Shown here piece after piece: positions 26,532 through 53,557 of a stretch of DNA of 64,000 nt. Where the stretch lies: NCBI RefSeq assembly GCF_000515395.1, contig NZ_KI911782.1, positions 4,396,697 through 4,460,696 of the forward strand. Reading direction: 5' to 3'. The notes beneath the pieces were generated by a model. That model saw nothing but the letters and a program-made list of their open reading frames with translations, did no database searches and was not told the DNA's origin. This stretch comes from Jiangella gansuensis DSM 44835. Lineage in GTDB: Bacteria > Actinomycetota > Actinomycetes > Jiangellales > Jiangellaceae. A program made the position numbers and the translations under genes. How positions within the stretch are numbered: the first letter of the stretch is position 1; each line of letters starts with the position of its first letter.

Positions 26532-26657
26532 TAGCGGCATATGGCTGTCAACACCCGGCGCGCTGCCGCCACCGTCCGCGCGGCGCTCGGAGCCCACCCC
26601 GCGGCGTACCGTGGTCTACATTCAGGAGCGTCGGATCGAATAGTCAGAAGGAGCGTG

Positions 26658-36289: not shown

Positions 36290-38308
36290 GTGTACTACGG
36301 AGGCGACTACAACCCCGAGCAGTGGCCTTCCGAACTCTGGCCGAGGGACGCGGAGCTCATGCGCGCCGCCGGCGTCAATCTGGTGAGTCTCGGCATGTTC
36401 TCCTGGTCGCGCATCCAGCCGGCCGAAGGCGAGTTCGATTTCGGCTGGTTGGATGAGGTCATCGGTATTCTGCATGACCATGGCATCGCGGTGAATCTGG
36501 CGACCGCCACGGCGTCGCCGCCGCCGTGGGCCACGCACCACTATCCCGACATGCTCCCGCAACTGGCTGACGGCACCGTGCTGTGGCCGGGCAGCCGGCA
36601 GCACTTCGCCGCGACCTCTCCGGTCTACCGGCGCTTGGCGCTCGAATTGGTGACGGCGGTAGCTGAGCGGTACGCCGGTCATCCGGCCGTGGTCATGTGG
36701 CACGTGAACAACGAGTACGGCTGCCATGTCCCGTATGACTACTCCGACAACGCACGTGATGCTTTCCAAGGGTGGCTACGGCGTCGGTACGGCGACGTCG
36801 GCACGCTCAACACCGCCTGGGGCACCGACTTCTGGTCGCAGCGCTACACGGCGTTCGAACAGGTGCTGCCGCCACGATCCGCGCCGTACAGCCAGAACCC
36901 GGCCGCCCTGCTGGACTTCCGCCGCTTCACCTCCGACGCGACGCTGGAGCTGTTGGTCATGGAGCGCGACGCCATCCGCGGCGCCGGCGCGGCCCAGCCT
37001 ATCACCACCAACTTCATGGGCCCGTTCCATGCGCTCGACTACTGGCGGTGGGCCGACGAACTCGACCTCATAGCCGACGACAGCTACCCCGACCCAGCCG
37101 ACCCGCAGTCCTTCCGCCGAGCTGCCTTCACCCGCGATCTGATGCGCTCACTCGGCGGCGGCAAGCCGTGGATCCTCATGGAGCAGGCCGCGAACGCGGT
37201 GAACTGGCGGCCGGCCAACGCCCCCAAGGCTCCCGGCCAGATGGCCGCGCTCAGCATGCAGGCGGTGGCGCGTGGCGCCTCCGGGGTCATGTTCTTCCAA
37301 TGGCGTCAGTCCCGCTCCGGAAGCGAGAAGTTCCACTCGGCGATGCTGCCGCACGCCGGCACCGAGACACGCACCTGGCGCGAGGTCGTGCGGCTCGGTG
37401 CGGAACTCTCCCCGCTACCGGAGATCGCCATGTCACCCGGCGACGTGAAGGTGGCGCTGCTGTTCGACTGGGACAACCTGTGGGCGGTGAGCAACCCCGA
37501 CCACCCGGTCGAGCTGGACTACACCGATATCGTCCTTCGCTGGTATGCAGCGATCCACCGCCAGCACGTCCAGGTCGACATCCGCACGGCTGGCCACGAC
37601 CTCTCCGCCTACGACGTCGTGATCGCCCCCTTGCAGTACCTGCTGCCGGCGGCTGCTGGAACCAACCTCATCGACTACGTCCGGCGCGGCGGTCACCTCC
37701 TGGTCGCCGGTTTCACCGACATCGTCGACGAGCACGACGCCTTCCGCGACGGCGGGTTCCTCACCCAGCTCGGGCCGACACTCGGCATCCGGCTGGAGGA
37801 CTTCGGCGCGCTGCCCGAGTGCGACGGTGTTTCCTTCCGGCTCGACGGCGCCGACCACACCGGTACGACCTACGCCGAAGAGATCCAGCTCGCCGGCGCG
37901 ACGCCCCTGGCACGGTTCAGCACCGGTCGCCCCAGCGACCAGCCCGCGTTCACCAGCCATCGCGCCGGCGCAGGTGTGGCCTATTATCTCGCCACCCTGC
38001 CGGACGACGACGGCATGCGGGCGGTCACCCGCCACGTGTTCGCCCGCGCCGGGGTGACGGGGGTGCTTCCGGGCGCTCACCCCGACGTCGAAGCGATCCG
38101 CGCCGGCGGGTACCTCGTCGTCATCAACCACACTGATCGGCACCATGCCGTCACGCTCGACAGGCACTACGTGTCCGACAACGCACCGGTCACCGAGGTC
38201 GAGCTGCCACCGTTCGGCTATGCAGTGCTGTGCCGGCCGTCGGAGGCCGCCACGAACGCGAGCGACCGGCAACACGTGCCCGCGCGAGCACACGGCTCAG
38301 TCGGCTGA
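36290..38308 (+). CDS. GH42 beta-galactosidase
   Basis: A 672-residue GH42 enzyme, which removes terminal beta-galactose, typically from galacto-oligosaccharides. The N-terminus Y-Y-G-G-D-Y-N-P-E-Q-W-P is characteristic. The acid/base is Glu142 in N-N-E-Y-G and the nucleophile Glu298 in L-M-E-Q. The trimerisation domain (about 390-590) and a small C-terminal beta domain follow. The start is taken at GTG 36290, four bases after CAGGAGG. An in-frame GTG at 36218, directly after the LacI stop, would add 24 residues but has a weaker site. No signal peptide: it finishes imported oligosaccharides inside the cell. Confidence 0.92.
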   Translation: MYYGGDYNPEQWPSELWPRDAELMRAAGVNLVSLGMFSWSRIQPAEGEFDFGWLDEVIGILHDHGIAVNLATATASPPPWATHHYPDMLPQLADGTVLWPGSRQHFAATSPVYRRLALELVTAVAERYAGHPAVVMWHVNNEYGCHVPYDYSDNARDAFQGWLRRRYGDVGTLNTAWGTDFWSQRYTAFEQVLPPRSAPYSQNPAALLDFRRFTSDATLELLVMERDAIRGAGAAQPITTNFMGPFHALDYWRWADELDLIADDSYPDPADPQSFRRAAFTRDLMRSLGGGKPWILMEQAANAVNWRPANAPKAPGQMAALSMQAVARGASGVMFFQWRQSRSGSEKFHSAMLPHAGTETRTWREVVRLGAELSPLPEIAMSPGDVKVALLFDWDNLWAVSNPDHPVELDYTDIVLRWYAAIHRQHVQVDIRTAGHDLSAYDVVIAPLQYLLPAAAGTNLIDYVRRGGHLLVAGFTDIVDEHDAFRDGGFLTQLGPTLGIRLEDFGALPECDGVSFRLDGADHTGTTYAEEIQLAGATPLARFSTGRPSDQPAFTSHRAGAGVAYYLATLPDDDGMRAVTRHVFARAGVTGVLPGAHPDVEAIRAGGYLVVINHTDRHHAVTLDRHYVSDNAPVTEVELPPFGYAVLCRPSEAATNASDRQHVPARAHGSVG

Positions 38309-39043
38309 TCGTCCCAACTCTGCAGCGGCACCCCGGACAGCCTGTAGCAGCGGCGTGACGAAATCCGCGAGCTTTCTCTTGCTGACCCGCATACCGGGCG
38401 CCGATACGCTCAGTGAGCCGGCCGCCCGGCCATCGGCGTGCATGATCGGGGCCGCGACGCATCGGATTCCCAGCTCATGCTCCTGCTCGTCGACTGCGAA
38501 GCCCCGGGCTCTCGTCAGCTCCAGATCGGCCCGGAGAGCATCAGGTGAGGTGAGTGTGTGCTGTGTGTACTCCGTGAGGTCCGTCGCGTCGATCAAGGCA
38601 GCTTGTTCGGCAGGTGGGAGCTGCGCCAGTATGGCTTTCGCCACGCCGGTGCAATGCAGTGGCGCGATAAAGCCGATCCGCGAGTACATCCGCACCGGAT
38701 GCTGGCTCTCGATCTTTTCGATGTAGACCACGTGACCGTTCGTGAGAATTGCCAGGTGAACGGTTTCCCCGGTCGCTTGGTTCAAGTCGCGCATGAACGG
38801 CAAGGCGACGTCGCGGATGTCGATCGACTCCAGTGCCCGCTGCCCGAGCTCCATGACCGCCGCGCCGAGCGAGTAGGCACCATCGGGCCGCCGGTCCAAC
38901 AAGCGCCAGCCGTGCAACGCGTGGAGGATCCGCAGTGCGGTGGTTGCATGGACGCCGAGCCGATCCGCTACCTCGCTGACGCTTCGGGGTCGCACGCCCA
39001 CGAACATCAGCGTCTCCGCGGCACGATTGACCGACTGCGTCAC
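38297..39043 (-). CDS. IclR family transcriptional regulator
   Basis: A 248-residue IclR protein. A winged helix-turn-helix (about 8-60) with S-V-S-E-V-A-D-R-L-G-V-H-A-T-T-A-L-R is followed by the effector domain (about 75-245) with G-F-I-A-P-L-H-C-T-G-V-A-K-A-I-L-A and the C-terminal S-V-S-A-P motif. GTG 39043 follows GGGGGTC. Its end overlaps the GH42 gene by 12 bp. Two 15-nt palindromes 145-179 bases upstream match sites before the second GH53 and the esterase, so it probably autoregulates and controls those genes. Confidence 0.9.
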   Translation of the reverse strand: MTQSVNRAAETLMFVGVRPRSVSEVADRLGVHATTALRILHALHGWRLLDRRPDGAYSLGAAVMELGQRALESIDIRDVALPFMRDLNQATGETVHLAILTNGHVVYIEKIESQHPVRMYSRIGFIAPLHCTGVAKAILAQLPPAEQAALIDATDLTEYTQHTLTSPDALRADLELTRARGFAVDEQEHELGIRCVAAPIMHADGRAAGSLSVSAPGMRVSKRKLADFVTPLLQAVRGAAAELGRSAD

Positions 39044-39187: not shown

Positions 39188-39222
39188 CTGCGCGTTGCGC
39201 AGCAGCGCTGCGTAATACGCAG
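39188..39222. promoter_or_regulatory. Tandem IclR-type operator pair 1 (upstream of iclR-like gene)
   Basis: CTGCGCGTTGCGCAG (39188-39202), 5 bases, CTGCGTAATACGCAG (39208-39222). Both are palindromic and their centres are 20 bp apart. It lies between the GH2 terminator and the IclR gene. Confidence 0.7.
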
Positions 39223-39302: not shown

Positions 39303-41816
39303 CTACCCAGCCACTCGAAGGTCGATGGATGCTCCGGTGAGGCCGGACGCGGAGGCGCTCACCCTGACGCCGCCCGGCTCGTCCTGTGCCTGGAGGACTG
39401 CCAGCAGCCTGCCCTGGAAGGCGTTTCGCTCGGTCAGCCGGTAGGCCTGCCGATCGGACATGTTCCCGTTGTCCGATCCCAGGTACGTCACCGGACCGTT
39501 CACCGACCAGGTGACCCGGTTGTTGGCCGTGGGCACCACCAGCCCGTTGGCGTCCACGATCTCGGCGACAATGTGGGCCACATCGCGGCGGTCGGCGGTG
39601 ATCTCGTCCCGATCCACGGAGAGCCGGACCGCCGCCGGCGCTGAGGTCGTGGAGATCTCAGTCGTCACCGCGACATCGTTGAGCTTGCGTCCTACGGCCC
39701 GGAGCGTGCCGGGCTCGTACGGGACGTCCCACGCGAGGCTCAGATCCGAGGTCGTGCGGGGCGTGCTCCGCTCGGGCGGGTAGTTGCCGTACGCCTCGAT
39801 CATGCCGATCGCCGGGTGCCAGTATCCCTTGACCCCGAGCGACCGGCCGTTGAGGAACAACTCCACCGAGTCACAGTTCGAGTAGCACCGGACGGTGATG
39901 ACCTGCCCCTCCGGGACGTTCTGGTTCCAGTGCGGAAAGATGTGGACCATCGGCTCCTCGGTCCACTGGCTCTGGTAGAAGTGGTAGCCGTTCTTCTTGA
40001 ACCCGCACAGGTTGAGCACGCCTCCACTGAAGCCGCGACTGTTGGGGGAGGACGCCTCGCCGAGATAGTCGACACCGGTCCACATGAAGTCACCGGAGGC
40101 GTAGTCGCGCGTCGAGATGAACTTGTACTGGTTCTCGACGTCGACGCTGTGGTTCGTGGTGATGTTCCCGCTCTCGCTGCCGACCATGGGCTTGTGGCCC
40201 CACTTCTTGCGGTCGACTTCCATGTACAGGTGGGCGCGGTCGCGCCAGCGATTGCAGTAGTTGTATCCCACGATGTCCATCTCGGCGATGAACTCGTCGG
40301 TGGTCGCGGCTCCGGGTCGCTCGTGGCCCATCCGGTCGCACCCGACGGTCACCAACCTGGTGGGGTCCTCGCGGTGGAACACCTCGTTGAGCCGCCGTAG
40401 CGTGACATGCCCGTTCGGGTCTCCCTCCGGGGACTGGTCGGCGACCTCGTTGCCCGCACTCCACATCACCACAGACGGGTGGTTGCGGTCGCGGTGCACG
40501 ACGTTGACCAGGTCGCGCTCGAACCACTCCTCGAAGTAGGCGCTGTAACCGTTCGGTGCCACCTGCGGCTTGGGGGCCTTCCACTCGTCGAAGACCTCGT
40601 TCATCACGAGGAAGCCCATGCGATCGAAGAGATCGAGGACCTCGGCGGCGAACGGGGTGTGGCCCGTCCGGATCGCGTTGCATCCCATCTCCTTGAGGAT
40701 CTCCAGGCGGCGGACCCATACTCCCTCGGGCACCGCGGCACCCACCAGGCCGCCGTCGTGGTGGAGGTTGACACCGTTCATCTTGACCTGCTGGCCGTTG
40801 ATCAGCAGGCCCCGGTCAGCGTCGAAGACGGCGGTCCGGATGCCGATCGGTGTGAGGTAGACGTCTGCAACGCCGAGCGCCTCTCCGCCGGGGCCCGGCC
40901 GGGTCCGGACCGTGCTCTTGATCGTGTACATCACCGGGTCGTCCACCGTCCACAGCGTGGGGCTGTCGACGTCGATCTGCTGGCGGAAGGTGTGGTCCGT
41001 TCCGTGCGGGATGGTCTTGGCCGACTCGACCGTCTCGACCGTGCGTCCGTCGGCGTCCACCAGGTCGGTCTGCAAGACGACTCGGAGGGGGCGGCTGCCC
41101 TCGTTCTGCACTCTGGTCCTGACCTGCAGCGTGGCCGCTTCCTCGGCGGCGTTCTCGACGATCACCTGAGTGCCCCATTGGCCGACATGGATGTCGTGCA
41201 TCGTGGTCAGCCAGGTGTGCCGGTAGATCCCAGAGCCGGAGTACCACCGGCTGTTGGGCTGGCGGGAGTTGTCCACTCGTACAGCGATGACGTTGTCGCC
41301 GTCGACGAGATGCGGAGTCAGGTCGTAGGCGAACGGGACGTAGCCGTAGGGGCGGTGACCCAGCTGGTGCCCGTTGATCCAGACGGTGCTGTTCTGGTAC
41401 ACGCCGTCGAAGTCGACGACGAACCGTCGGCCGGCCCGCGAGTTCGGCACGGTGAAACGCTTGCGATACCAGCCGATGCCGGTCGGCACCCAGCCACCCG
41501 GCCCCCCGGACGGCTCGCTGGGGCTCAAGGGCCCCTCGATGCTCCAGTCATGCGGAAGGTCGACGTGCTGCCAGCCGGCATCGTCGAACGCCGGGTCCTG
41601 GGCGCCCTCCTGATCTCCGCGGACGAACTGCCAGCCGAAGTCGAAGGTGGCACGGTGGCGACCCTCCTGCGTAGCCTCGTCCGTCGCGTGTGCGACCGAG
41701 GCGCCGGCGATCTGCGGACCGACACCGGCCGCGAGGAGGCCCAAGCCGAGGCCTGCCCCTCCTCTGAGCAACTCGCGCCGTGTCGCGCCCTCGGTGGCCA
41801 CTGTCTGATCGCTCAT
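39303..41816 (-). CDS. Tat-exported GH2 family beta-galactosidase
   Basis: An 837-residue GH2 enzyme. It starts with a twin-arginine signal (R-R-E-L-L-R-G-G-A-G-L-G-L-G) and an A-H-A cleavage region near residue 44, so it is exported folded. Then come the sugar-binding jelly-roll domain (about 60-215), the Ig-like domain (about 220-330) and the barrel (about 335-620) with acid/base Glu457 in G-N-E-V and nucleophile Glu548 in G-S-E-S-G. C-terminal DUF4982-like and Ig-like domains finish it. ATG 41816 follows AAGGAAG. It is downstream of the second GH53 on the same strand and probably trims galactan fragments outside the cell. Confidence 0.9.
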   Translation of the reverse strand: MSDQTVATEGATRRELLRGGAGLGLGLLAAGVGPQIAGASVAHATDEATQEGRHRATFDFGWQFVRGDQEGAQDPAFDDAGWQHVDLPHDWSIEGPLSPSEPSGGPGGWVPTGIGWYRKRFTVPNSRAGRRFVVDFDGVYQNSTVWINGHQLGHRPYGYVPFAYDLTPHLVDGDNVIAVRVDNSRQPNSRWYSGSGIYRHTWLTTMHDIHVGQWGTQVIVENAAEEAATLQVRTRVQNEGSRPLRVVLQTDLVDADGRTVETVESAKTIPHGTDHTFRQQIDVDSPTLWTVDDPVMYTIKSTVRTRPGPGGEALGVADVYLTPIGIRTAVFDADRGLLINGQQVKMNGVNLHHDGGLVGAAVPEGVWVRRLEILKEMGCNAIRTGHTPFAAEVLDLFDRMGFLVMNEVFDEWKAPKPQVAPNGYSAYFEEWFERDLVNVVHRDRNHPSVVMWSAGNEVADQSPEGDPNGHVTLRRLNEVFHREDPTRLVTVGCDRMGHERPGAATTDEFIAEMDIVGYNYCNRWRDRAHLYMEVDRKKWGHKPMVGSESGNITTNHSVDVENQYKFISTRDYASGDFMWTGVDYLGEASSPNSRGFSGGVLNLCGFKKNGYHFYQSQWTEEPMVHIFPHWNQNVPEGQVITVRCYSNCDSVELFLNGRSLGVKGYWHPAIGMIEAYGNYPPERSTPRTTSDLSLAWDVPYEPGTLRAVGRKLNDVAVTTEISTTSAPAAVRLSVDRDEITADRRDVAHIVAEIVDANGLVVPTANNRVTWSVNGPVTYLGSDNGNMSDRQAYRLTERNAFQGRLLAVLQAQDEPGGVRVSASASGLTGASIDLRVAG

Positions 41817-42025: not shown

Positions 42026-44443
42026 CTAGAGCCCGGCGCACTGCCCCCTCTTCGGGCCAGTCGTGTTGTTGGCCGAACCGTTGTTCACCGGTGCCGGGTC
42101 ATTGCCCGAACACGTCAGCGGGCCGGTGATCCGGTTGCCCGCGATCACGTTCCACCCCGACGCTCCTGTCACCGAGACCGGCCCCAGCACGGTGTTCGGC
42201 TCACAGCCGACCGCGGGGTTGCCCAGGGTTGTCGACGACGCGCCCTCGACGGTCAGCGGGCCGGTCACTCGAGTGCCGCAGACCACTACGACGCCGTCAC
42301 CCTGCGACGTCACCGGACCCGTGATCTGTCCCTCGGACACGACGACCGACGCACCCGGACGGACCGTGACCGGCCCGGTGATCGCCGCCTGCTCGATGCA
42401 GGTGACGCCCGAGTCGATGGTCAGCGGGCCCAGGTGCCGCCCGGACACCGTCTCGTCGCACGTCGGTGCCACGTAGTCCTCGATCACCTCCACGAGCGCG
42501 ATGACGTCGCCGAACTCGGTCGAGCCTGTGATAGTGACCTGGCCAGCCGTGTCTGTAGCGTCGCCAGCGACCTCGTCCCAGTCGACCGGGACCGAAGCCA
42601 CCGACCCGTCGGCGGTGGTCAGCACCTGCACCGTTTCGGGCAGCACCGGCTGGTCGCCGACGAGCACCGTCCGGTAGAGGCGGTCCTCCACGACGTGTGT
42701 GGCGCGGCTCTTGTTGTAGATGTCGATCGAGCTGTGCGGTTCGAAGGTGTTCGGCATGCCGGGAACCGACCGGAACATCGACTGCCAGCTCGCCGGCTCC
42801 CAGGTGAGAACGCCCTTGCCCTGGTTGTTGATGATGTCGTTGTTGGCCTGGAAGACCCGCTGGATGGCATCGGCCTGGCCCTGGATCGTCCGCGGGTAGA
42901 TCGCGTTCGGCATCGGCGCACCGCCACCGCCGGAGGCCGGATAGGACGTCTCTGCCACGACGAGATCGACCTGCGGGTATGCCGAGGCAATCGTGTGCAG
43001 GTTGAACACGAGCTGCTCCATCGTCCCGTGGTGCTCGGGGTAGTACGACTGCCCGATGACGTCGGGGAACACGCCGTGCTGGTCCTCCAGGCGGGAGAGA
43101 GTCTGGCTCCACATCTCCATCGCCTTCTCGATACCGCTGATCTCCTGGTTGCCCACGCCCGGGCCGACGACCGGGCCGATGCCGCCGCCGGTCAGCGAGT
43201 GGATCTCGACTCGCGTCTCCGGCGAGGCGTCCCGGACGGCACGGATACCGGCGGCCTGCAACTCGGCGAAACGGTCGAAGGCCTCCGAGTAGAGCTGCTG
43301 TTCCACCGGGTCGTCCGAGTTCATGTACGGCCACAGCAGACCTCCGCCGAGCTGTGACTGGTAGATCCCTGGATTGTTACGGAAGTAGGCAGGGTTCGCC
43401 CTCCCGATGACCGGGCCGGTGGTCATGCCGGTGGCTTCGCTACCCCACATGAAGCCGTTGTTGACCTCGTTGCCGATCGCCACCTTGTCCGGTGTCGTGC
43501 CCTGGTCGATGAGCTGGCGGATGTAGTCGTAGGTGTAGTCGTAGACCGCCTCCACCAGTTCGTCGAACGGTAGCTCGGCCCAGGCCCGCGGCTTGGGCTG
43601 CTTGCCCGGGTCGGCCCATGAGTCGGCATAGTGGAAGTCGATGCCCAGCTCGAGTCCCCGCTCCTTGATCCACTTCGCCGACTGGAGCGATCGCTCCGGG
43701 CCCTGGCGCGGGGGATGGACGAGGTTGCCGGAGGACTCGCTGCGGGGCTCGTTGAAGACCCGCAAGCGGACGAAGTCCATGCCCCGATCCTGGAGGACGT
43801 CGAGCAGGAACGGCCCGGCGCCGCGATCCTCGTCCAGCGGGTGAACCCAGTACGCGCGATTCTGGAAGTCGTCGATGTACGACAGGTCAGCACCCAGCAC
43901 GACATCGTCGCGCAGGTAGTTGAAGGCACTGATCTCGCTCACGCCGATGGTCGCGCCTGGCGACGATCCGGTGATCGTGACTCGGAGGTAGCGGGCGCCC
44001 GGCTGCGTGAACAGCACGATCGAACCCCGGCCCGCCTCGGCATTGTTCGACCGGTCGGCGATCACTGTCCAGTGCTCGCGATGGTCCGACGCCTCGACCA
44101 CGTATTGGTACACGGCGCCGGCGTCCGGGAAGACGACTTCGACCTTGCGGATGTTGTCGTAATGGCCCCCGAGATCGAGTGTCAGCCACTGATCGCCGGA
44201 GCCCTCGGCGGCCCACGCCGTCTGGGTGTCCTGGTCGATCGCCAGCCCGGCCGAGTCGGCGCCGCTGCTGGCCTCAACGGACGCCCAGAACCTCTCCGCG
44301 ATATCGCTCTCGATCGGTTCGATCTGGACGTCACCAAACAGCGCTGTCGCCGGATTCACAGCGCCGAATAGCGTACCGCTGAACGCCAGGGTAATCGCTG
44401 CGGCGATGCTCACAATGGTGCGGATAGGGCGGTACGTCGCCAT
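42026..44443 (-). CDS. Second secreted GH53 endo-beta-1,4-galactanase, paralogue of 28164-30539
   Basis: An 805-residue galactanase with the same layout as its paralogue: signal peptide (about 1-35), discoidin-like domain (about 40-175), GH53 barrel with acid/base Glu326 in G-N-E-V and nucleophile Glu498 in V-A-E-T-S-Y-P, an Ig-like domain, and the G-P-V/L repeat domain at the C-terminus. The segment between the catalytic glutamates is 18 residues longer than in the paralogue, so the substrate loop may differ. ATG 44443 follows GGGAG. Its upstream region carries a tandem IclR-type operator pair instead of the LacI-type site of the paralogue. Confidence 0.92.
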   Translation of the reverse strand: MATYRPIRTIVSIAAAITLAFSGTLFGAVNPATALFGDVQIEPIESDIAERFWASVEASSGADSAGLAIDQDTQTAWAAEGSGDQWLTLDLGGHYDNIRKVEVVFPDAGAVYQYVVEASDHREHWTVIADRSNNAEAGRGSIVLFTQPGARYLRVTITGSSPGATIGVSEISAFNYLRDDVVLGADLSYIDDFQNRAYWVHPLDEDRGAGPFLLDVLQDRGMDFVRLRVFNEPRSESSGNLVHPPRQGPERSLQSAKWIKERGLELGIDFHYADSWADPGKQPKPRAWAELPFDELVEAVYDYTYDYIRQLIDQGTTPDKVAIGNEVNNGFMWGSEATGMTTGPVIGRANPAYFRNNPGIYQSQLGGGLLWPYMNSDDPVEQQLYSEAFDRFAELQAAGIRAVRDASPETRVEIHSLTGGGIGPVVGPGVGNQEISGIEKAMEMWSQTLSRLEDQHGVFPDVIGQSYYPEHHGTMEQLVFNLHTIASAYPQVDLVVAETSYPASGGGGAPMPNAIYPRTIQGQADAIQRVFQANNDIINNQGKGVLTWEPASWQSMFRSVPGMPNTFEPHSSIDIYNKSRATHVVEDRLYRTVLVGDQPVLPETVQVLTTADGSVASVPVDWDEVAGDATDTAGQVTITGSTEFGDVIALVEVIEDYVAPTCDETVSGRHLGPLTIDSGVTCIEQAAITGPVTVRPGASVVVSEGQITGPVTSQGDGVVVVCGTRVTGPLTVEGASSTTLGNPAVGCEPNTVLGPVSVTGASGWNVIAGNRITGPLTCSGNDPAPVNNGSANNTTGPKRGQCAGL

Positions 44444-44596: not shown

Positions 44597-44631
44597 CTGC
44601 GTATTGTGCAGTCACACTGCGCCATGTGCAG
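44597..44631. promoter_or_regulatory. Tandem IclR-type operator pair 2 (upstream of GH53 paralogue)
   Basis: CTGCGTATTGTGCAG (44597-44611), 5 bases, CTGCGCCATGTGCAG (44617-44631). The spacing is the same 20 bp centre to centre as in pairs 1 and 3. It could act on both the minus-strand GH53 and any plus-strand transcript. Confidence 0.7.
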
Positions 44632-45512: not shown

Positions 45513-46816
45513 ATGAACGACCGATCGTCGGCAGGCCGCCTCATCCCTCGCATGGGCCGCATGCAGCGCGCGACGGCCCTGGCAGGCGCCGCCGTGCTTC
45601 TCGCCGCTTGCGGCGGAGGTACGGCGGAGGACGCTGGTGAGGATGGTCCGATCGTGCTCGACTTCCCGACGTGGCAGGCGAATGAGCCGGGTCACGGCGA
45701 CGCGCTGCGCGCCATCGTGGAGGAGTTCGAGAGTCGCCATGAAGGCGTCACCGTCAACATGTATCCAGTCAGCAACGAGGACTTCCAGAACCAGATCGTC
45801 ACTCAGTTGTCCGCCGGTGACCCGCCGGACATCATCGCCTCGGGCAACCACTTCTATGCCTTCGCCGAAACCGGCCAGCTGGAACCGCTGAACGACCGGC
45901 TCGAAGACAGCGGCCTGCTGGACGAGTGGGAGGACTTCCAGCAAGAACGCGTGGTGGACGACCAGCACCTGGCTCTCACGATGCACGCTTTGACCCGGCT
46001 GCTGTACTTCAACGAGGACTACCTCGCCGCAGCCGGCGTCGACGCACCACCGACCTCGCCCTCCGAACTGGCCGACGCTGTGAAGGCGTTGGCCGGAAGC
46101 GTCGAAGAGGGAGTGTCTCCCTGGGGCGCCACGACAACCACACACTCCAACCTCTTCGGCGAAGTGACGGCCTTCATCGTCGGTATGGGCAGCCAGTGGA
46201 TCACCGACGGCGAATGGAGCGTCACGGCGCCCGAAACCGTCGAAGCAGTGGAGCTCTACCGCGAACTGGCACGTCAGGCACCACCTGGTCTTGACGGTGG
46301 CGGCTACCGGCAGCTGCTCGCGGACGGGCGGATCGCCATGTCGCAGGACGGCAACTGGGTCATCTCGACCCTCGACGAGGTGTCGCCGGCCGATGTGCGA
46401 CCGCAGTTGCAGGCCGCACCGCCGCCGTTCGAGAACTCGTTGGCGCTCGTCGGCACATCCTTGTCGATACCGGCCGGGATCAGCGAGGAACGCAAGGATC
46501 TCGTGTGGGACTTCATCCAGGTCGCCGCCGAACCGGAGTTCCAGGGCATGTGGGCCGGAGCCATCGATGCCGCCCCGGGTCGCACCGGTTCGATCCCGCC
46601 GGAGCGCATCCAGGAACGTCCCGAGCTGGAGGTGGTCGCGCAGACCATCGAGAGCGCCCAGCCGGAGTTCCCCGACAGCGCCAACTTCCGCGCCAACTTC
46701 GGCGAGCCGAGACGCGGATCATCGACGCGATGATGCGCCTGCTGACGACCGACGCCGAGACCGTGGACGTGCTGACCGACCTCGAGTCGGAACTGTCGTC
46801 CGTCACCGAACCGTAG
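45513..46816 (+). CDS. Sugar ABC transporter solute-binding lipoprotein (importer C), frameshifted near the end
   Basis: A CUT1 binding protein with lipobox L-A-A-C33. The frame from ATG 45513 ends at 46733 after 406 residues, its last dozen being unlike the family. Typical C-terminal sequence (E-T-R-I-I-D-A-M-M...L-T-D-L-E-S-E-L) continues in the next frame to TAG at 46816. Adding one base near 46713-46717, within GAGCCGAG, restores a product of about 434 residues. It is either a real single-base deletion that removes the last helices or a sequencing error. Downstream are two permeases and an IlvD plus DapA pair, so the ligand may be an aldonic acid or oligosaccharide thereof. Confidence 0.8.
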
Positions 46817-46822
46817 GCAACG

Positions 46823-46860
46823 GGCCTGGTGGGCGGCGCGCCGGTTCAGCCCACCAGGCC
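46823..46860. terminator. Stem-loop between importer C binding protein and permease genes
   Basis: 12-bp stem GGCCTGGTGGGC (46823-46834) with 46849-46860 and a 14-base loop. It begins six bases after the restored binding-protein stop, supporting 46816 as the original end of that gene. Confidence 0.6.
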
Positions 46861-46892
46861 GTGCCCGACCGGCCGACAGGAGGAGATGTCAT

Positions 46893-47852
46893 ATGACGGT
46901 AGCTACCGATGACCGCCGAAGCGCCGGCACCCCAACCGGCAGACCGAGGCGGTCGCCGTGGCGCCCGTCGCTCTCGACGCGCAACAACCTGCTCTCGTAT
47001 GTCTTGCTCGCGCCGTCGCTTGCGATGTCTCTTGTGTTCATCGCGTTCCCCATCTACATGATCGTGAATCTGAGCCTGCGCGACGGTAAGACGATGATCA
47101 TGAGCGAGGTCGGGGACCTGCCGCTGACTCTGGGCAACTACGACGCGGTGCTGTCCGACCCGGATACCTGGCACTCGCTGCGGATCTCGGCAACGTACAC
47201 GCTGGCCGCAGTGGCCGGAGCCATCATCATCGGGCTCACCACCGCGCTGCTGATCCGCCGGCGGCTGCCCGGCAGACGGTGGCTTCGAACACTGATTCTC
47301 ATTCCGTGGCCGATCCCGGGATCGATCGCTACCGTGGCATTCGTCTGGATGCTCGACGGCACCTACGGCGTGGTCAACTACCTGCTGCGTCTCGTCGGCG
47401 TCATCGACGAGAACATCGCCTGGTTCTTCGACCCACAGACCGCGTTGATCGGCGTGCTGATGCCGACGGTGTGGAGCGCGTACCCGTTGTGCACTCTCAT
47501 GCTCCTCGCATCGCTGCAGTCCGTGCCCGACGAACTGTACGAAGCGGCGAAGGTCGACGGTGCCGGCCCAGTGCTGCAGTTCCGTCACGTCACGTGGCCC
47601 GCGGTGCAGAACACGGCCGTGCTGGCGATGATCGTCACCGGGCTGTGGACCTTCACCACGTTCGACTTCGTGTACGCGATCACGCGCGGCGGTCCCGACG
47701 GTGCGACGCAGACATTGGCTGTGGCCATCTACAACCAGGCGTTCCGGTTCTTCGATCTCCCACACGCGTCCGCGCTCGGCGTGGTGACGATGGTGATGGC
47801 CGGCCTTGTGCTGCTGGCACTGTTCCCCGTCGTCCGCCGGCGCTTTTTCTAA
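46893..47852 (+). CDS. Sugar ABC transporter permease, MalF type (importer C)
   Basis: A 319-residue CUT1 permease with a basic N-terminal tail, six membrane segments and the EAA loop Y-E-A-A-K-V-D-G-A-G-P-V-L. ATG 46893 follows AGGAGGAG. It is part of importer C, which lacks its own ATPase. Confidence 0.9.
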   Translation: MTVATDDRRSAGTPTGRPRRSPWRPSLSTRNNLLSYVLLAPSLAMSLVFIAFPIYMIVNLSLRDGKTMIMSEVGDLPLTLGNYDAVLSDPDTWHSLRISATYTLAAVAGAIIIGLTTALLIRRRLPGRRWLRTLILIPWPIPGSIATVAFVWMLDGTYGVVNYLLRLVGVIDENIAWFFDPQTALIGVLMPTVWSAYPLCTLMLLASLQSVPDELYEAAKVDGAGPVLQFRHVTWPAVQNTAVLAMIVTGLWTFTTFDFVYAITRGGPDGATQTLAVAIYNQAFRFFDLPHASALGVVTMVMAGLVLLALFPVVRRRFF

Positions 47853-47891
47853 TGAACCGCCACCGTGCGTGGCTTCGAGGTGATGCACGTT

Positions 47892-48716
47892 ATGAGTCGG
47901 AGTACGGTCCTTCGCTACGGACTGATCGTGGCGATCATCGTCGTGCTGCTCTTCCCCGTCTACTGGATGGCGCTGACGGCGGTGCTGCCCACCCGCGAGT
48001 TGCTGTCACCGTCGCCGCCGCTGATTCCCGACCTCGGTTCGATCAGCTTCGAGTCGTTCCGGCGCGTGTTCGAACTCCGGCCGGTCGGACGCTGGATGAC
48101 CAACTCGGCCATCGTGACCGCCGGAACCGTGGTGTGCGCGGTCGTGCTGGCGACGATGGCGGGCTACAGCCTCTCCCGTCTGGCCTCGAAGATCGGGCTG
48201 GTCGTCGGATACAGCCTGTTCGCGGTCCGGCTGATCCCGACGACGCTCCTGGTCATTCCCTTGTTCATGATGTTCAGTCAGGTGGAGCTCAACAACACGC
48301 TGCGCAGCCTGATCATCGCGAACACCGTCGTCATCGTCCCCTTCGCGGCGTGGCTGATGAAGTCCTTCTTCGACTCGATCCCGGTCGAGCTGGAAGAGGC
48401 GGCGATGGTCGACGGGTGCTCGAGGTTGCGGTCCTTCCTGACGATCGTCCTCCCGCTGGCCAGGCCGGGCATCGGCGCGGTCGCGATCTTCTCCGGCATT
48501 CTGGCCTGGGGTGACTTCACCTTTGCTCGAACCCTCATCCAGGGTGACGCCGGCACCACCGTGACCGTAGGACTGGTGAGCTTCGTCGGGGAGTACACCG
48601 CCGACTGGGGAGCTCTCATGGCCGCGGGCCTGCTGTCGATCGCTCCCATGGTGATCTTGTTCATCCTGCTCGAGCCGCTGCTCATCAGCGGACTGACGAG
48701 CGGCTCCGTCAAGTGA
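47892..48716 (+). CDS. Sugar ABC transporter permease, MalG type (importer C)
   Basis: A 274-residue CUT1 permease with six membrane segments and the EAA loop L-E-E-A-A-M-V-D-G-C-S-R-L-R. ATG 47892 is nine bases after GAGGTG; ATG 47883 and GTG 47865 in the same frame are alternatives. It is followed after 63 bp by the dehydratase gene, probably on the same transcript. Confidence 0.88.
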   Translation: MSRSTVLRYGLIVAIIVVLLFPVYWMALTAVLPTRELLSPSPPLIPDLGSISFESFRRVFELRPVGRWMTNSAIVTAGTVVCAVVLATMAGYSLSRLASKIGLVVGYSLFAVRLIPTTLLVIPLFMMFSQVELNNTLRSLIIANTVVIVPFAAWLMKSFFDSIPVELEEAAMVDGCSRLRSFLTIVLPLARPGIGAVAIFSGILAWGDFTFARTLIQGDAGTTVTVGLVSFVGEYTADWGALMAAGLLSIAPMVILFILLEPLLISGLTSGSVK

Positions 48717-48779: not shown

Positions 48780-50597
48780 GTGGCACCAGTAGGGACGTCC
48801 CGCCGCCTGCGCAGCAACCGGTACTACGGCGGCTACAACCAGCAGGCGTTGGTCCGCAACGGGCACATGCAGGCTCTCGGGTTCCCCGACGGCCTGTTGC
48901 GGTCGGGGAAGCCACTGATCGGCATCGCCAACAGCCAGTCGGACCTCAACCCGTGCAACGCCCACCTCGGCGACGTCGCCGAGGCCGTCAAGCGGGGGGT
49001 CTGGGAAGCCGGTGGCGTGCCCGTCGTGTTCCCCACGATCAGCCTCGGCGAGGCGAACATGCTTCCGACCACCATGCTGTTCCGCAACCTCATGAGCATG
49101 GACGTGGAGGAGACGCTGCGTGCCAACCCGGTCGACGGGGTGGTGCTGCTGGGAGGATGCGACAAGACGACGCCGGCGCAGCTCATGGGCGCCGCCAGCG
49201 TGGATCTCCCGTCCTTGGTGCTCACCGGCGGGCCGATGCTGACCAGCCGGTTTCGCGGGCGGACGCTCGGCACGGGAACTGACGCCCGCAAGCTCGCCGA
49301 CGAGGTGCGGGCGGGCCGGTTGGCGCCGGAGGAGTTCTTCGCCGCCGAGGGATGCTACGCGCGCAGCGCCGGCCATTGCATGGTGATGGGGACGGCATCG
49401 ACCATGGCGAGCGTCGCCGAGGCGCTGGGCATGCAACTCCCCGGCACATCGTCGATCCCGGCGCCCGAGGCCGCCCGGAAGCAGGCGGCGCACCGGGCAG
49501 GCCGGCGCATCGTCGAGATGGTCCACGAGGATCTGAGGATGTCGCGGATCCTCACCCGCGGCGCCTTCGAGAACGCGGTGAAGGTGAACGCCGCGCTCAG
49601 CGGGTCGACGAACGCGGTGCTCCATCTGCTCGCCATCGCCGGCCGCATCGGTGTGCCGCTGGAACTGGACGACTTCGACCGGTGGATGCGCGACGTACCG
49701 TGGCTGGCCAACCTCCGCCCGGCCGGGCAGCACTACATGGAGGACTTCCACCACGCCGGCGGCCTGCCCGCACTGATGCGGCGGCTCGGGGACCACCTCG
49801 ACACCAAGGCGCTGACCGTGACCGGCACGACGGTCGCGGAGAACGTGGCTGCGGCCGAGTGCTTCGACGACGACGTGATCCGGCCGATCGATCGGGCTCT
49901 GGGCGTCGGCGCGGGGACCGCCGTGTTACGTGGCAACCTCGCGCCTGACGGCGCCGTCATCAAACAGGCCGCCGCGAGCCCCGGGCTCATGCGCCACCGC
50001 GGACCCGCGCTCGTCTTCGACTCCATTCAGGAGTGCGAGGCGCGGATCCACGATCCGGACCTGGACGTCGACGAGAACACGGTCCTCGTGGTGCGCAACT
50101 GCGGACCGAAGGGATACCCCGGCATGCCCGAGGTCGCCAATCTCCCGATCCCGCGCAAGCTGCTGGAGCGGGGCGTGGACGACATGGTCCGCATCTCTGA
50201 CGCGCGCATGAGCGGCACGGCGTACGGCACCGTCATCCTCCATGTGGCGCCCGAGGCTGCCGCCGGGGGTCAGCTCGCCCTCGTCGAGACCGGTGACGTC
50301 ATCGTGCTCGACGTGCCAGCTCGGACCCTCTCGCTGGAGGTCGACGACGCCGAACTGCAGCGACGGCGCCAGGCGGCCGCGCCGCGGCCCCGGCGCTTCG
50401 AGCGCGGCTGGGCCCGGCTCTACGAGGACCACGTGCTGCAGGCCGATCGCGGTGCGGACCTCGACTTCCTCGTCGGCGGCAGCGGCGACGAGCCGCACGG
50501 CGGGGATCCGTACGCCACGCCGGACGAGGACGAACTGCTGCGCACCGACGCCGACCTCGCCGGGCGTCGGTCCACGGGATCGGAGGCCACTGCATGA
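48780..50597 (+). CDS. IlvD/Edd family dehydratase, probable sugar-acid (L-arabinonate-type) dehydratase
   Basis: A 605-residue Fe-S dehydratase. The cysteines are Cys59 (N-P-C-N), Cys127 (G-G-C-D-K) and Cys200 (G-H-C-M), the same positions reported for the [2Fe-2S] ligands of rhizobial L-arabinonate dehydratase. A serine matching its catalytic base is Ser478 in R-M-S-G-T. The family converts aldonic acids to 2-keto-3-deoxy acids. Sugar-acid rather than branched-chain amino-acid function is supported by the DapA-type gene that overlaps its stop (ATGA) and by the importer upstream. GTG 48780 follows AAGGAG. The exact aldonate is not known. Confidence 0.85.
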   Translation: MAPVGTSRRLRSNRYYGGYNQQALVRNGHMQALGFPDGLLRSGKPLIGIANSQSDLNPCNAHLGDVAEAVKRGVWEAGGVPVVFPTISLGEANMLPTTMLFRNLMSMDVEETLRANPVDGVVLLGGCDKTTPAQLMGAASVDLPSLVLTGGPMLTSRFRGRTLGTGTDARKLADEVRAGRLAPEEFFAAEGCYARSAGHCMVMGTASTMASVAEALGMQLPGTSSIPAPEAARKQAAHRAGRRIVEMVHEDLRMSRILTRGAFENAVKVNAALSGSTNAVLHLLAIAGRIGVPLELDDFDRWMRDVPWLANLRPAGQHYMEDFHHAGGLPALMRRLGDHLDTKALTVTGTTVAENVAAAECFDDDVIRPIDRALGVGAGTAVLRGNLAPDGAVIKQAAASPGLMRHRGPALVFDSIQECEARIHDPDLDVDENTVLVVRNCGPKGYPGMPEVANLPIPRKLLERGVDDMVRISDARMSGTAYGTVILHVAPEAAAGGQLALVETGDVIVLDVPARTLSLEVDDAELQRRRQAAAPRPRRFERGWARLYEDHVLQADRGADLDFLVGGSGDEPHGGDPYATPDEDELLRTDADLAGRRSTGSEATA

Positions 50598-51538
50598 CGC
50601 CGGAGTTCCGCGGGGTGTACTCGGTCCTGGTCACCCCGTTCACCGAGACCGGACACCTCGACCTCGCCGCCCTGGAGCGTGTCGTCGACTTCTCCATCGG
50701 CGCCGGTGCACACGGACTCGTGACTCCCGTCGTCGTGAGCGAGTTCTTCACGCTGAACGACGACGAACGACGGGCCGTCGTGGAGACCGTGGTCACGGCC
50801 ACTGCGGGACGCATCCCCGTTGTCGCCGGCGTATCGGCGCCGTCGATTCATGGGGCGGCGGAGCGTGCCGGGCACGCGGCTGAGGTGGGAGCGGACGCGG
50901 TCATCGCGGTACCGCCGTACGTGAAGCGTGCGTCATGGACCGAAACCGTCAGCTACTACGAGGCGATCGCGAACGCGAGCGACGGGCTTCCCGTGTTCGT
51001 GCAGAATGCCGACAACCCGTCGGGTACGCCGTTGTCGCCGGCTCAGCTGCTCGAACTGGCAGACCGCATCGAAGCGGTGTCCTGGATCAAGGAGGAGTCG
51101 GGTTTCTCCAGCCAGAAGATCTCGGCGGTTCTGGCGCAGGCCGGCACGAACGTGCGCGGAATCATGGGAGGAAAGGGCGCGAGGTACGCGCTCGACGAAT
51201 TCCAGCGTGGCATCTGCGGCACGATGCCTGGCTGCGAGTTCACGGATCTACACGTCGCATTGTGGGATGCGCTCGACGGCGGCGACCACGATCGGGCGGA
51301 TCATGCCTATCGGCTGTTACTCCCACTCGTCGAGATGGAGGACCAGTACGGCGGCGCGGCATTCTGCAAGGAAGTGCTCAGAATGCGCGGTGTTCTCACG
51401 AGCACATTCGTTCGGGAACCCGGCTCGCCTTCGCTGGATCGACAGGCGACGGATCTGTTGGCCCGCCACCTGCGTGTCGCCGAGGAGAACATCACCCGCT
51501 CGGGCAACCAAGCCGCCAAGCATGTGATCGACGTTTAG
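50594..51538 (+). CDS. DapA-family aldolase/dehydratase, probably for a 2-keto-3-deoxy sugar acid
   Basis: A 314-residue DHDPS/NAL-family barrel. The Schiff-base lysine is Lys166 in S-W-I-K-E-E-S. The tyrosine of the usual Y-N-x-P is replaced by Gln (V-Q-N-A-D-N-P), which argues against a true dihydrodipicolinate synthase. Known relatives dehydrate or cleave 2-keto-3-deoxy-arabinonate or -gluconate. Its ATG overlaps the dehydratase stop, so the two act in sequence: aldonate to keto-deoxy acid, then to an aldehyde (Weimberg-type) or to pyruvate and an aldehyde (Dahms/Entner-Doudoroff-type). No semialdehyde dehydrogenase is in the window to decide. Confidence 0.85.
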   Translation: MTPEFRGVYSVLVTPFTETGHLDLAALERVVDFSIGAGAHGLVTPVVVSEFFTLNDDERRAVVETVVTATAGRIPVVAGVSAPSIHGAAERAGHAAEVGADAVIAVPPYVKRASWTETVSYYEAIANASDGLPVFVQNADNPSGTPLSPAQLLELADRIEAVSWIKEESGFSSQKISAVLAQAGTNVRGIMGGKGARYALDEFQRGICGTMPGCEFTDLHVALWDALDGGDHDRADHAYRLLLPLVEMEDQYGGAAFCKEVLRMRGVLTSTFVREPGSPSLDRQATDLLARHLRVAEENITRSGNQAAKHVIDV

Positions 51539-51547
51539 GTCACAAGG

Positions 51548-51582
51548 CTGCGCATCATGCAGTCGTGCTGGATGGTGCGCAG
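51548..51582. promoter_or_regulatory. Tandem IclR-type operator pair 3 (upstream of secreted esterase)
   Basis: CTGCGCATCATGCAG (51548-51562), 5 bases, CTGGATGGTGCGCAG (51568-51582). The spacing is the same 20 bp as in pairs 1 and 2. It starts 10 bases after the DapA-type stop and ends 46 bases before the esterase start. Confidence 0.65.
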
Positions 51583-51628
51583 TCCGGATGTCAGGTTGAT
51601 CGGCTCCACGAGAAGGCAGGAGAGCCTT

Positions 51629-53557
51629 ATGAGTGAGAGGTCTGCGATGAGACGGACAGCTGCGCTGCTGGCTGTGTCGGTCGTGGCAAGTGCCTTGGTG
51701 TCCACTGCTGTGGGTGCACAGGCCGCTGCGCCGACAGAGCTGGAGCCAGTCGCTGTTCCCGGGGTCGGAACCGAGGTCTGGCTCTTCGACGAACGAGCGG
51801 CCTACGATTTCACGAAGCGTGAGCCCACCATCGCGCCACGCTATCTGGTCTATCCCGACAAGGCCGTCGACGCGGCGGGAGCGGCTGAGGTCATCGATGA
51901 GCTCGGGCTCGCGCCGCATCTGACCGAATACGCAACGCGTGCGTGGGTCATCAACCCGACGAACGGCGTCAGCTACGACGCCGAGGCGGATCTCGAGTCC
52001 TACTTCTCGCTGCTCAGCGAGCTCCCGCGGCAGGCCACCTGGCAGCACACCAACATGAAGGTGATCGGTATCGGCGAAGGCGCCACCTTCGTCAACAACG
52101 TCATCTCACAGAACTCGTGGTCGGTCGCCGGCATTTTCACTTACGGCGGGGCCATGAGTTCGACGGTGACGCCGCATGCGCCGATCCCGGCGTATATCCA
52201 CGGGAACGCCGCCGCGGCGGAACGATATGTGTCGGCGAACCAAGCTGCCCCGGTGAGCACTCAGGACGGGGTCACCGTCTATGAGAATCCAGACGATCCC
52301 TTGGTCCGGGTCGTGGCTTCACCGGACGACGGCCAGAGCCTGGCGGAGGCGTTCTCGGCCGCATGGGACCATCTCCTGAGCCATAACTACCGCATCTACC
52401 TCGATGCCAACAATCCGGGGCGGGTCGATCCCTTCGTCACGCGCGAAGGATTCACGTTGTTCTCCTATCGACTCGACGATCTGGGTGTCCGGCAGACGCC
52501 GGTGACCGACTCGCTGGGGTCGAGTGGCGAGTACATGTGGCAGGAGTACATTCCCGATTCGGCGGCCGAAGCACCTGCGGGCACCTTGCCGCTGATTGTG
52601 CTCCTGCACGGTACGACCGACATGCCTCAGCACATCGCCGAGCGAGGAGGCTGGATCGAACAGGTCGCTGAGGTCGGCGCGATCATGGTCTCCGCTGAGA
52701 ACCAGGGCACCCGATTCGGCTTCCGGGACTTCGATGCGGACTCGACCGAGCGGCTCGTCGAGCATCTCGCGGCGAAATACCCGCAGATCGACACCGGGCG
52801 CGTCTACGCATTCGGCTTCTCGCTCGGTGCCAGCCAGGCACAGTCATGGCCGCCCGCGAAGCGCGATCTCTTCGCCGCCGTGGCGGGCCTGGGAGCCCCC
52901 TTCGGAGGCGGCGACGCACAGATCGCTCAGGCCGCCGCGATCGCGGCGCCCAAGCACGAGGTGCCCTTCTACATGCTCCAGGGCGTGAACGACACCATCG
53001 GCCAGGTGCCGGTTTCCGCCAACCCACGCAGCGTCTACACGGCGGTGCGCGCCTACGGGGCGCTGAACGGGGTGGACGTGCCACAAGCGCCCGATCTCTC
53101 GATCAATCCCTTCTACGGCATCGCGCTGGACGATCAGCGATGGGACGAGATCGGCGCGAAGGACGCGCATGTCGGCACCCTCTCCAACGACCGCGGTGTC
53201 GTCATCAAACTGGCAGCGGTCGACGACCTCGCGCACGTGAACTACCCGTTGTCAGCGCCCGACATCTGGGACTTCTTCGACGACTACCGGCGCGACACCG
53301 CAACCGGAGAACTGCTCTTCGTCCCGAGCTTCGACAGGGTGCGGTGGCACTACGACCGAGCCGTTCGCGCCGGTCTGCTCACGGGAGATCGGGCCACCGA
53401 GATCCAGGAGGCGATCGACCGAGCCGAGCGGTTCATCGACGGACCGCGGCACAGTGCTGGCCTCGTCCAACTTCGGAACGCCGCTCGCGCGGCCGACCGG
53501 GCGGGAGCCGATGCGCTGGCCGACGCCCTGACGGAGCTGCGCCGGTCGCTGGCCTGA
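51629..53557 (+). CDS. Secreted esterase/PHB-depolymerase-like alpha/beta hydrolase with a large N-terminal domain
   Basis: A 642-residue protein. The N-terminus (M-R-R-T-A-A-L-L...A-Q-A-A-A) is a signal peptide of about 33 residues. Residues about 35-300 form a domain I do not recognise. From about 305 comes an alpha/beta-hydrolase of the PHB depolymerase/feruloyl-esterase style, with the oxyanion region L-L-H-G-T-T and nucleophile Ser398 in G-F-S-L-G. Its acid and His are probably in G-V-N-D-T and H-V-N-Y. A helical tail (about 575-642) ends the protein. ATG 51629 follows AGGAGAG. It probably removes ester groups from plant polymers; the operator pair ties it to the IclR regulon. Confidence 0.75.
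   Translation: MSERSAMRRTAALLAVSVVASALVSTAVGAQAAAPTELEPVAVPGVGTEVWLFDERAAYDFTKREPTIAPRYLVYPDKAVDAAGAAEVIDELGLAPHLTEYATRAWVINPTNGVSYDAEADLESYFSLLSELPRQATWQHTNMKVIGIGEGATFVNNVISQNSWSVAGIFTYGGAMSSTVTPHAPIPAYIHGNAAAAERYVSANQAAPVSTQDGVTVYENPDDPLVRVVASPDDGQSLAEAFSAAWDHLLSHNYRIYLDANNPGRVDPFVTREGFTLFSYRLDDLGVRQTPVTDSLGSSGEYMWQEYIPDSAAEAPAGTLPLIVLLHGTTDMPQHIAERGGWIEQVAEVGAIMVSAENQGTRFGFRDFDADSTERLVEHLAAKYPQIDTGRVYAFGFSLGASQAQSWPPAKRDLFAAVAGLGAPFGGGDAQIAQAAAIAAPKHEVPFYMLQGVNDTIGQVPVSANPRSVYTAVRAYGALNGVDVPQAPDLSINPFYGIALDDQRWDEIGAKDAHVGTLSNDRGVVIKLAAVDDLAHVNYPLSAPDIWDFFDDYRRDTATGELLFVPSFDRVRWHYDRAVRAGLLTGDRATEIQEAIDRAERFIDGPRHSAGLVQLRNAARAADRAGADALADALTELRRSLA

Follow-up and report, generated by a model that had tools for sequence, protein, structure and literature searches.

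The window, a stretch of 64,000 nucleotides of the Jiangella gansuensis DSM 44835 genome, carries a gene that, in the reading to which we give modest preference, encodes a secreted tandem alpha/beta-hydrolase. This would be a carbohydrate esterase with a catalytic C-terminal domain and an N-terminal domain lacking the nucleophile, belonging to a galactan regulon under an IclR-type regulator. The hydrolase is an uncommon variant within a known superfamily. The original prediction had described a secreted hydrolase with an unassigned N-terminal region, probably co-induced with a galactanase and active on esters of pectic galactan. Its observations were confirmed and its interpretation is partly supported, because an operator is common to this gene and that of the GH53 galactanase, the gene is linked to GH53, GH2 and ABC transporter genes, and feruloyl and acetylxylan esterases occur among the relatives of the C-terminal domain (matched by a profile that has distant tandem relatives among its members).

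The open frame is present at 51557-53557 on the forward strand. Its start was placed at the ATG at 51629 because an AGGAG lies upstream and an ATG or GTG occurs at the matching place in three family orthologs; the homolog from a Microbacteriaceae MAG starts a few residues further in. Secretion is probable, given a Sec-like signal read by eye in the first residues. A sigma-70 promoter scan of 51400-51700 returned none. The features discussed below are collected in Table 1.

Table 1. Position, strand and basis of assignment of the features of the hydrolase locus and of related regions
Feature	Position	Strand	Basis
IclR-family regulator, likely operator reader	38300..39043	-	Pfam, operator comparison
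Operator pair, 0 mismatches, ~145 bp upstream of iclR homologue	39188..39222		motif scan
GH2 beta-galactosidase-like protein	39306..41816	-	Pfam and further family scan
GH53 endo-galactanase with F5/8-type C domain	about 42029..44443	-	Pfam
Operator pair, 0 mismatches, between GH53 and ABC operon	44597..44631		motif scan
ABC sugar transporter: binding protein, two permeases	45513..48716	+	Pfam (binding protein), sequence (permeases)
IlvD/EDD dehydratase near L-arabinonate dehydratase, below that model's cut-off	48780..50597	+	
DapA-family aldolase/dehydratase	50594..51538	+	family scan
Operator pair, 1 mismatch, ~47 bp upstream of hydrolase start codon	51548..51582		motif scan
Tandem alpha/beta-hydrolase protein P0001, 642 aa, probably secreted	51629..53557	+	frame; upstream AGGAG; ortholog starts
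Likely Sec signal peptide, residues 1-34	51629..51730	+	read by eye from sequence
N-terminal domain, residues 36-298, probably a degenerate alpha/beta-hydrolase that lacks the nucleophile Ser	51734..52522	+	profile comparison, alignment
Degenerate elbow G147-I-G149-E-G151, Gly149 at aligned Ser position	52067..52081	+	alignment
C-terminal domain, residues 299-565, PHB-depolymerase/CE1-like	52523..53323	+	NCBIfam, solved-structure profile, profile comparison
Nucleophile elbow GFSLG, Ser398 (52820-52822)	52814..52828	+	alignment
Catalytic acid candidate Asp455	52991..52993	+	alignment
Catalytic His536	53234..53236	+	alignment
C-terminal helical tail, residues 566-642	53324..53554	+	sequence comparison
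Tandem-hydrolase regions, two other Jiangella-group genomes	L064 7793-15141; L065 1459-10033; L066 4608-9644		

About 265 residues were predicted to precede a PHB-depolymerase-like domain, and this layout proved right: Pfam is empty at residues 36-298 and all weak matches are C-terminal. A Pfam scan of the whole frame gave no family at threshold, the Esterase family PF00756 reaching 14 bits over the C-terminal part against a gathering cut-off of 22. The best NCBIfam matches, also over the C-terminal part, are PHA/PHB-depolymerase models, and polyester hydrolases occur low among the solved-structure matches listed, as would be expected if the protein were a depolymerase of PHB or another polyester. 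This is highly improbable, however, since the scores stand far under the cut-offs (NF050058, 40.8 of 150 bits; TIGR01840, 22.5 of 107.85 bits), no polyester-binding domain was matched in Pfam, and the genomic context is one of galactan use. Membership of the PHB depolymerases is rejected by the curated NCBIfam cut-offs, in keeping with the original view that PHB breakdown is not the role of this enzyme.

Three groups of sequences were used in the profile comparisons. The close family comprises five sequences, including the window protein and the Microbacteriaceae MAG homolog; the distant tandem relatives are six proteins of the same two-domain layout (two adjacent genes on a Subdoligranulum plasmid, L016, and Jiangellaceae loci L005, L038, L047 and L059); and the single-domain esterase profile holds eight of the 11 loci L048-L058, with L048, L051 and L055 left out. 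The C-domains of the close family match the single-domain esterases with an hhalign probability of 96.9 (E 1.3e-10). As a single sequence the hydrolase matched no solved structure, and profile A2, made of the hydrolase and three distant tandem relatives (four sequences), matched 131 at E≤0.1, the best 60 of which all align over the C-terminal half. The top match is LC-Est1C (3wyd, 1.4e-19), followed by 8daj and then EstA (3doh, 1.9e-14), and the solved relatives include the feruloyl esterases 9j07 and 8iy8 and acetylxylan esterase A (5x6s). In the alignment of the tandem proteins a GxSxG serine followed by the catalytic histidine occurs in all 11 C-domains. The candidate acid Asp455 is kept in the five close members and the 11 aligned rows hold Asp in eight, Glu in one, Ser in one and a gap in one. 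The C-domain is thus predicted to belong to an alpha/beta-hydrolase esterase family, with Ser398-Asp455-His536 as the putative catalytic residues.

Behind the C-domain lies a helical tail, which is absent from the Microbacteriaceae homolog, has no Pfam match above cut-off and is the sole part of the AlphaFold model with fair confidence (pLDDT 61-85 by blocks of ten). It recurs, at 34-38% identity, in other proteins of the Jiangella group (L011-L014).

The original prediction left the N-terminal region unassigned. This held with respect to Pfam, which gave no match for residues 36-298 alone at E≤10, but not beyond it, as a two-step profile link makes a degenerate duplicate of the alpha/beta-hydrolase domain its most likely identity. 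In the first step, the five close-family N-domains matched the six distant N-domains with an hhalign probability of 86.5 (E 4.6e-6, 205 columns); none of 150 column shuffles was as good, the best reaching 2.9, and omission of any one of the six relatives gave values of 59.6-89.1. In the second step, the six distant N-domains matched their own C-domains (96.8, E 2.7e-10) and the eight single-domain esterases (84.0, E 7.7e-6), with 0 of 119 shuffles as good in either case. Five unrelated control families scored at most 0.3 against both N-domain profiles, the highest control score, 5.6, being that of the single-domain esterases against an ABC binding protein. The link needs the pooled profile, because two separate subsets of the distant relatives gave just 11.7 and 1.3 against the close-family N-domains; the former value, from the Subdoligranulum/L005 subset, was equalled by none of 120 shuffles. 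Compared directly, the close-family N-domains and the C-domains gave a probability of 0.2, and at most 0.4 in another comparison. In pairwise alignments the window N-domain reached at best z 3.1 against a distant relative (6 of 500 shuffles), and each N-domain aligned directly to its own C-domain gave z 7.3 and 8.1 in two of the 11 proteins, both from Subdoligranulum, and below 1.8 in the other nine.

The AlphaFold models were too poor to confirm the fold, with a mean pLDDT of 40.9 for the full protein and 47.2 for the N-domain, probably because just five close sequences were usable. Of the two routes named in the original prediction for identifying the region, the profile route yielded the two-step link, while a fold search with the N-domain model gave no match at E≤0.001. 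The best hit was a DUF1537 protein (Z 5.0), and the feruloyl esterases found amid the noise (8iy8, E 0.18; 8jh8, Z 3.6, rank 9) are not evidence. The thin alignments behind the profile link, the empty Pfam search, the lack of direct similarity to the C-domain and the low-confidence models would all fit an N-terminal part that is an unrelated new fold, for example a carbohydrate-binding domain, with a false profile link. We consider this unlikely in view of the shuffle and control results and of the alignment itself, whose 205 columns run in order and bring the elbow, the PAYIHG strand and the closing AWD..L..H..R segment into register. An old duplication in which the first copy lost catalysis would be the simplest account of the N-domain.

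At the aligned nucleophile position, serine occurs in all 11 C-domains and in none of the 11 N-domains, which have Gly in eight cases and Pro, Glu and Arg in one each. Eight N-domains, including that of the window protein, have no serine within one residue of this position; in the other three (L005, L059 and one of the Subdoligranulum proteins) a serine adjoins it, and its loss from these hinges on how they are aligned. In the five close-family N-domains, where the elbow reads GIGEG or GVGDG, loss of the serine is beyond doubt. A reading of this elbow as a Ser to Glu replacement was rejected, since the alignment places Gly149 at the serine position. Glu150 (Asp in the MAG homolog) lies beside the lost serine and is conserved in the five close members, and PMC8040265 describes a tandem CE1 enzyme whose two domains differ; both points would suit an N-domain that is active through another nucleophile or mechanism, making this a two-activity enzyme. 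The consistent replacement of the serine at the aligned elbow by Gly, Pro, Glu or Arg makes such an enzyme very hard to credit, and a nucleophile-less N-domain is the reading retained here.

The promoter evidence concerns an operator pair consisting of two 15-bp CTGC-N7-GCAG boxes, 20 bp apart from start to start, with 16 fixed bases. The genome (5.59 Mb, one contig) contains two perfect pairs, both in this locus, and two pairs with one mismatch, one of them in this locus, against about 0.01 perfect and 0.43 one-mismatch places expected by chance at an assumed G+C content of 70%. The operator pair is therefore real and more than chance. The pair at 44597 precedes GH53 by about 154 bp and the ABC operon by about 880 bp; no operator pair stands in front of the second GH53 (28164) or of the GH42 gene (36218). 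Perfect pairs precede iclR in five of the five genomes examined (the window genome and G200 included) and GH53 in all four genomes having an ortholog, that of the window included. The hydrolase copy is the weakest of the three in the window, and in relatives it has two mismatches (J. ureilytica) or three (J. aurantiaca, by hand count). The Phytoactinopolyspora hydrolase lacks a pair in front of it, even when two mismatches are allowed, and follows a GH2 gene that bears one; the 22 kb read of this genome contain four perfect pairs, one each ahead of the ABC genes, iclR, GH2 and GH53. In J. ureilytica another pair, with two mismatches, stands before GH2, and at the hydrolase locus of the Microbacteriaceae MAG the pair is absent.

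The likely reader of the operator is the IclR protein. In G200 the pair lies between iclR (69% identity) and GH2, and the 18 kb read there hold no match of at least 45% identity to the other proteins of the locus, either LacI included. The IclR protein is preferred to the LacI regulator encoded next to the hydrolase because G200 has the pair and iclR and, in those 18 kb, no LacI match. The original claim of a common IclR-type operator pair at the hydrolase and GH53 genes has withstood the genome-wide scan, as three of the four places with at most one mismatch fall in this locus, and this operator may control both genes.

As judged from its gene families (GH53-F5/8C, GH2, GH42, GH43 and an ABC importer), the setting is one of type-I arabinogalactan use, and Pfam scans of 17 other window proteins revealed none for aromatic-acid use, a point against the preferred reading. 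A second GH53 (28164-30539) is 63% identical to that at about 42029 and is accompanied by LacI-type regulator genes at 26541 and 35204. Behind the ABC genes, the L-arabinonate-dehydratase-like IlvD and the DapA protein (48780-51538) point to oxidative, non-phosphorylating catabolism of a released sugar.

The closest named relatives of the hydrolase are those of Jiangella aurantiaca, J. ureilytica and Phytoactinopolyspora alkaliphila, followed by the Microbacteriaceae MAG. Both Jiangella species keep the order GH53 - ABC - IlvD - DapA - hydrolase - LacI, and Phytoactinopolyspora has the order ABC - IclR - GH2 - hydrolase - GH53. In the MAG (68% identity) ABC genes and a LacZ-type GH2 precede the hydrolase, and genes for an MR_MLE dehydratase and a GntR regulator are close by. 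Tandem hydrolases occur beside genes of sugar-acid catabolism, namely IlvD and DapA here, the MR_MLE dehydratase in the MAG and, next to the Subdoligranulum pair, genes for a presumed YgbK-like kinase, DapA and PdxA, which could mean that the substrate is a sugar-acid ester or lactone and not a decorated polysaccharide. We hold this for improbable, because the sequence suggests secretion and the gene is linked to that of GH53, and because Phytoactinopolyspora keeps GH53, GH2 and hydrolase, with neither IlvD nor DapA found in the 22 kb read. A decorated polysaccharide remains our preferred substrate.

The full-length hydrolase occurs in four of the 22 family genomes, six having any match at E≤1e-5; in G059 and G124 only the C-terminal tail is matched. 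The GH53 ortholog is found in the same four genomes, a coincidence with a chance of 1 in 7315 (hand arithmetic) if the two genes were independent, which they are not, as shared descent or joint transfer leaves few independent events. GH2 orthologs (at least 80% identity) occur in the same four genomes and in G200, and a GH2 of 35% identity in G174 passed the threshold too. Beyond the family the hydrolase is rare: it was detected at E≤1e-10 in at least four of 393 class genomes, its own included, and its N-domain in at least one of 396 phylum genomes, namely its own, these counts being lower bounds because the first three (class) or six (phylum) candidates per genome were scored.

The two-domain profile was matched at E≤1e-25 in at least 17 of 393 class genomes, six over both domains and 11 over the C-domain only. 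A plasmid search with P0001 returned a single record, the Subdoligranulum plasmid. P0002 matched 120 records, of which, among the 30 matches listed, just the Subdoligranulum plasmid was covered over at least 80% of the length; of three other records that were retrieved, one is annotated as an esterase (1098 bp). P0004 matched nine, one over at least 80% of the length, and the N-domain of P0002 alone recovered only its own record. Searches of phage records and viral contigs revealed no relative. On the plasmid, the island L016 2488-11850 contains the two adjacent tandem hydrolases, which have no obvious signal peptide by eye; their neighbours encode an SBD_N/NBD_C kinase (by Pfam; the protein that we take to be YgbK-like), DapA, PdxA, a CitMHS citrate-type transporter and an iron alcohol dehydrogenase. 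On contig 33 of G217 (L006, L033, L040) there is a truncated copy of the L005 protein (residues 240-564, 100% protein identity) about 22 kb away, which is a recent partial duplication.

Other tandem hydrolases lie beside genes for aromatic compounds. L038 is accompanied by protocatechuate 3,4-dioxygenase subunits, a lyase, a CoA transferase and an IclR gene (by Pfam), and L047 by an alpha/beta-hydrolase, an alpha-L-rhamnosidase and frames whose printed starts resemble the dioxygenase and lyase genes of L038. The gene immediately ahead of L059 combines a xylose-isomerase-like TIM-barrel domain with an HPPD domain, a fusion as in dehydroshikimate dehydratase. In the L064, L065 and L066 regions, from two other Jiangella-group genomes, the tandem hydrolases have protocatechuate-dioxygenase and lyase genes next to them (by scan in L064, by resemblance in L065) or follow such a fusion gene directly. 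The neighbours of L038, L047 and L059 hint at hydrolysis of phenolic (or quinate) esters. It is conceivable, though we put it no higher than a tentative proposal, that the hydrolase is the founding member of an undescribed esterase family with an active C-domain and an obligatory pseudo-esterase N-domain. It would take hydroxycinnamoyl or acetyl esters off pectic galactan, and soluble esters of hydroxycinnamate or quinate would be the substrates of sister clades whose genes adjoin those for protocatechuate and dehydroshikimate.

As for the hydrolase itself, its gene context makes it plausible that this soil actinobacterium uses it to clear pectic galactan of feruloyl or acetyl esters. Ferulate ester-linked to O-6 of beta-galactose has been reported in the (arabino)galactan of core Caryophyllales (PMC5084320). 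In the proposed mechanism, the C-domain would act outside the cell and free pectic (arabino)galactan of an ester decoration, most likely a feruloyl or acetyl group; the de-esterified chain would then be cut by the GH53 endo-galactanase and the fragments taken up by the ABC importer. The N-domain, of the same fold by descent but with its nucleophile lost, presumably contributes, be it through contact with the active domain, through shaping of its cleft or through substrate binding. The gene would belong to a small regulon with paired 15-bp palindromes at its promoters, read by the neighbouring IclR-family protein. Secretion, esterase activity, substrate, binding of the operator by the IclR protein, induction by galactan and the role of the pseudo-domain are all predictions from sequence. 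With this analysis an unassigned 265-residue region becomes a testable pseudo-enzyme module, a candidate esterase for pectic galactan is gained and, for actinobacterial galactan use, a compact regulon of the IclR type is defined together with its clear operator; the occurrence of the two-domain layout on a plasmid of gut Clostridia and beside aromatic-acid genes further suggests an overlooked esterase family.

The C-domain has the GxSxG motif, the histidine and a candidate acid in common with the CE1/PHB-depolymerase-like esterases (3wyd, 8daj, 9j07, 8iy8, 5x6s), from which the hydrolase differs in scoring below the curated cut-offs and in bearing a degenerate second alpha/beta-hydrolase domain in front. 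Another esterase with an extra N-terminal domain is EstA (3doh) of Thermotoga, which matches profile A2 as given above; its N-terminal domain is Ig-like, whereas that of the hydrolase aligns to alpha/beta-hydrolases. Closer in layout is DmCE1B of Dysgonomonas mossii, described as a protein from a polysaccharide locus with two CE1 domains, one of them poorly active (PMC8040265): the N-terminal domain is the feruloyl esterase, the C-terminal one is weak and a CBM48 lies between them. Each of the two proteins, encoded in a polysaccharide locus, would thus carry a pair of domains with an esterase fold on a single chain; unlike DmCE1B as outlined in that source, the hydrolase has the N-terminal domain without serine, and its target would be galactan, not xylan. 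No tandem esterase in a galactan locus appeared among the matches listed in a search of titles and abstract openings of the open-access literature. Bacterial GH53/GH42 galactan loci, such as the Bacillus gan genes and those of Bifidobacterium, bring together GH53, a beta-galactosidase and a transporter under LacI regulation. Compared with these loci, the present one is distinguished by an IclR regulator with paired palindromes and by the inclusion of an esterase gene.
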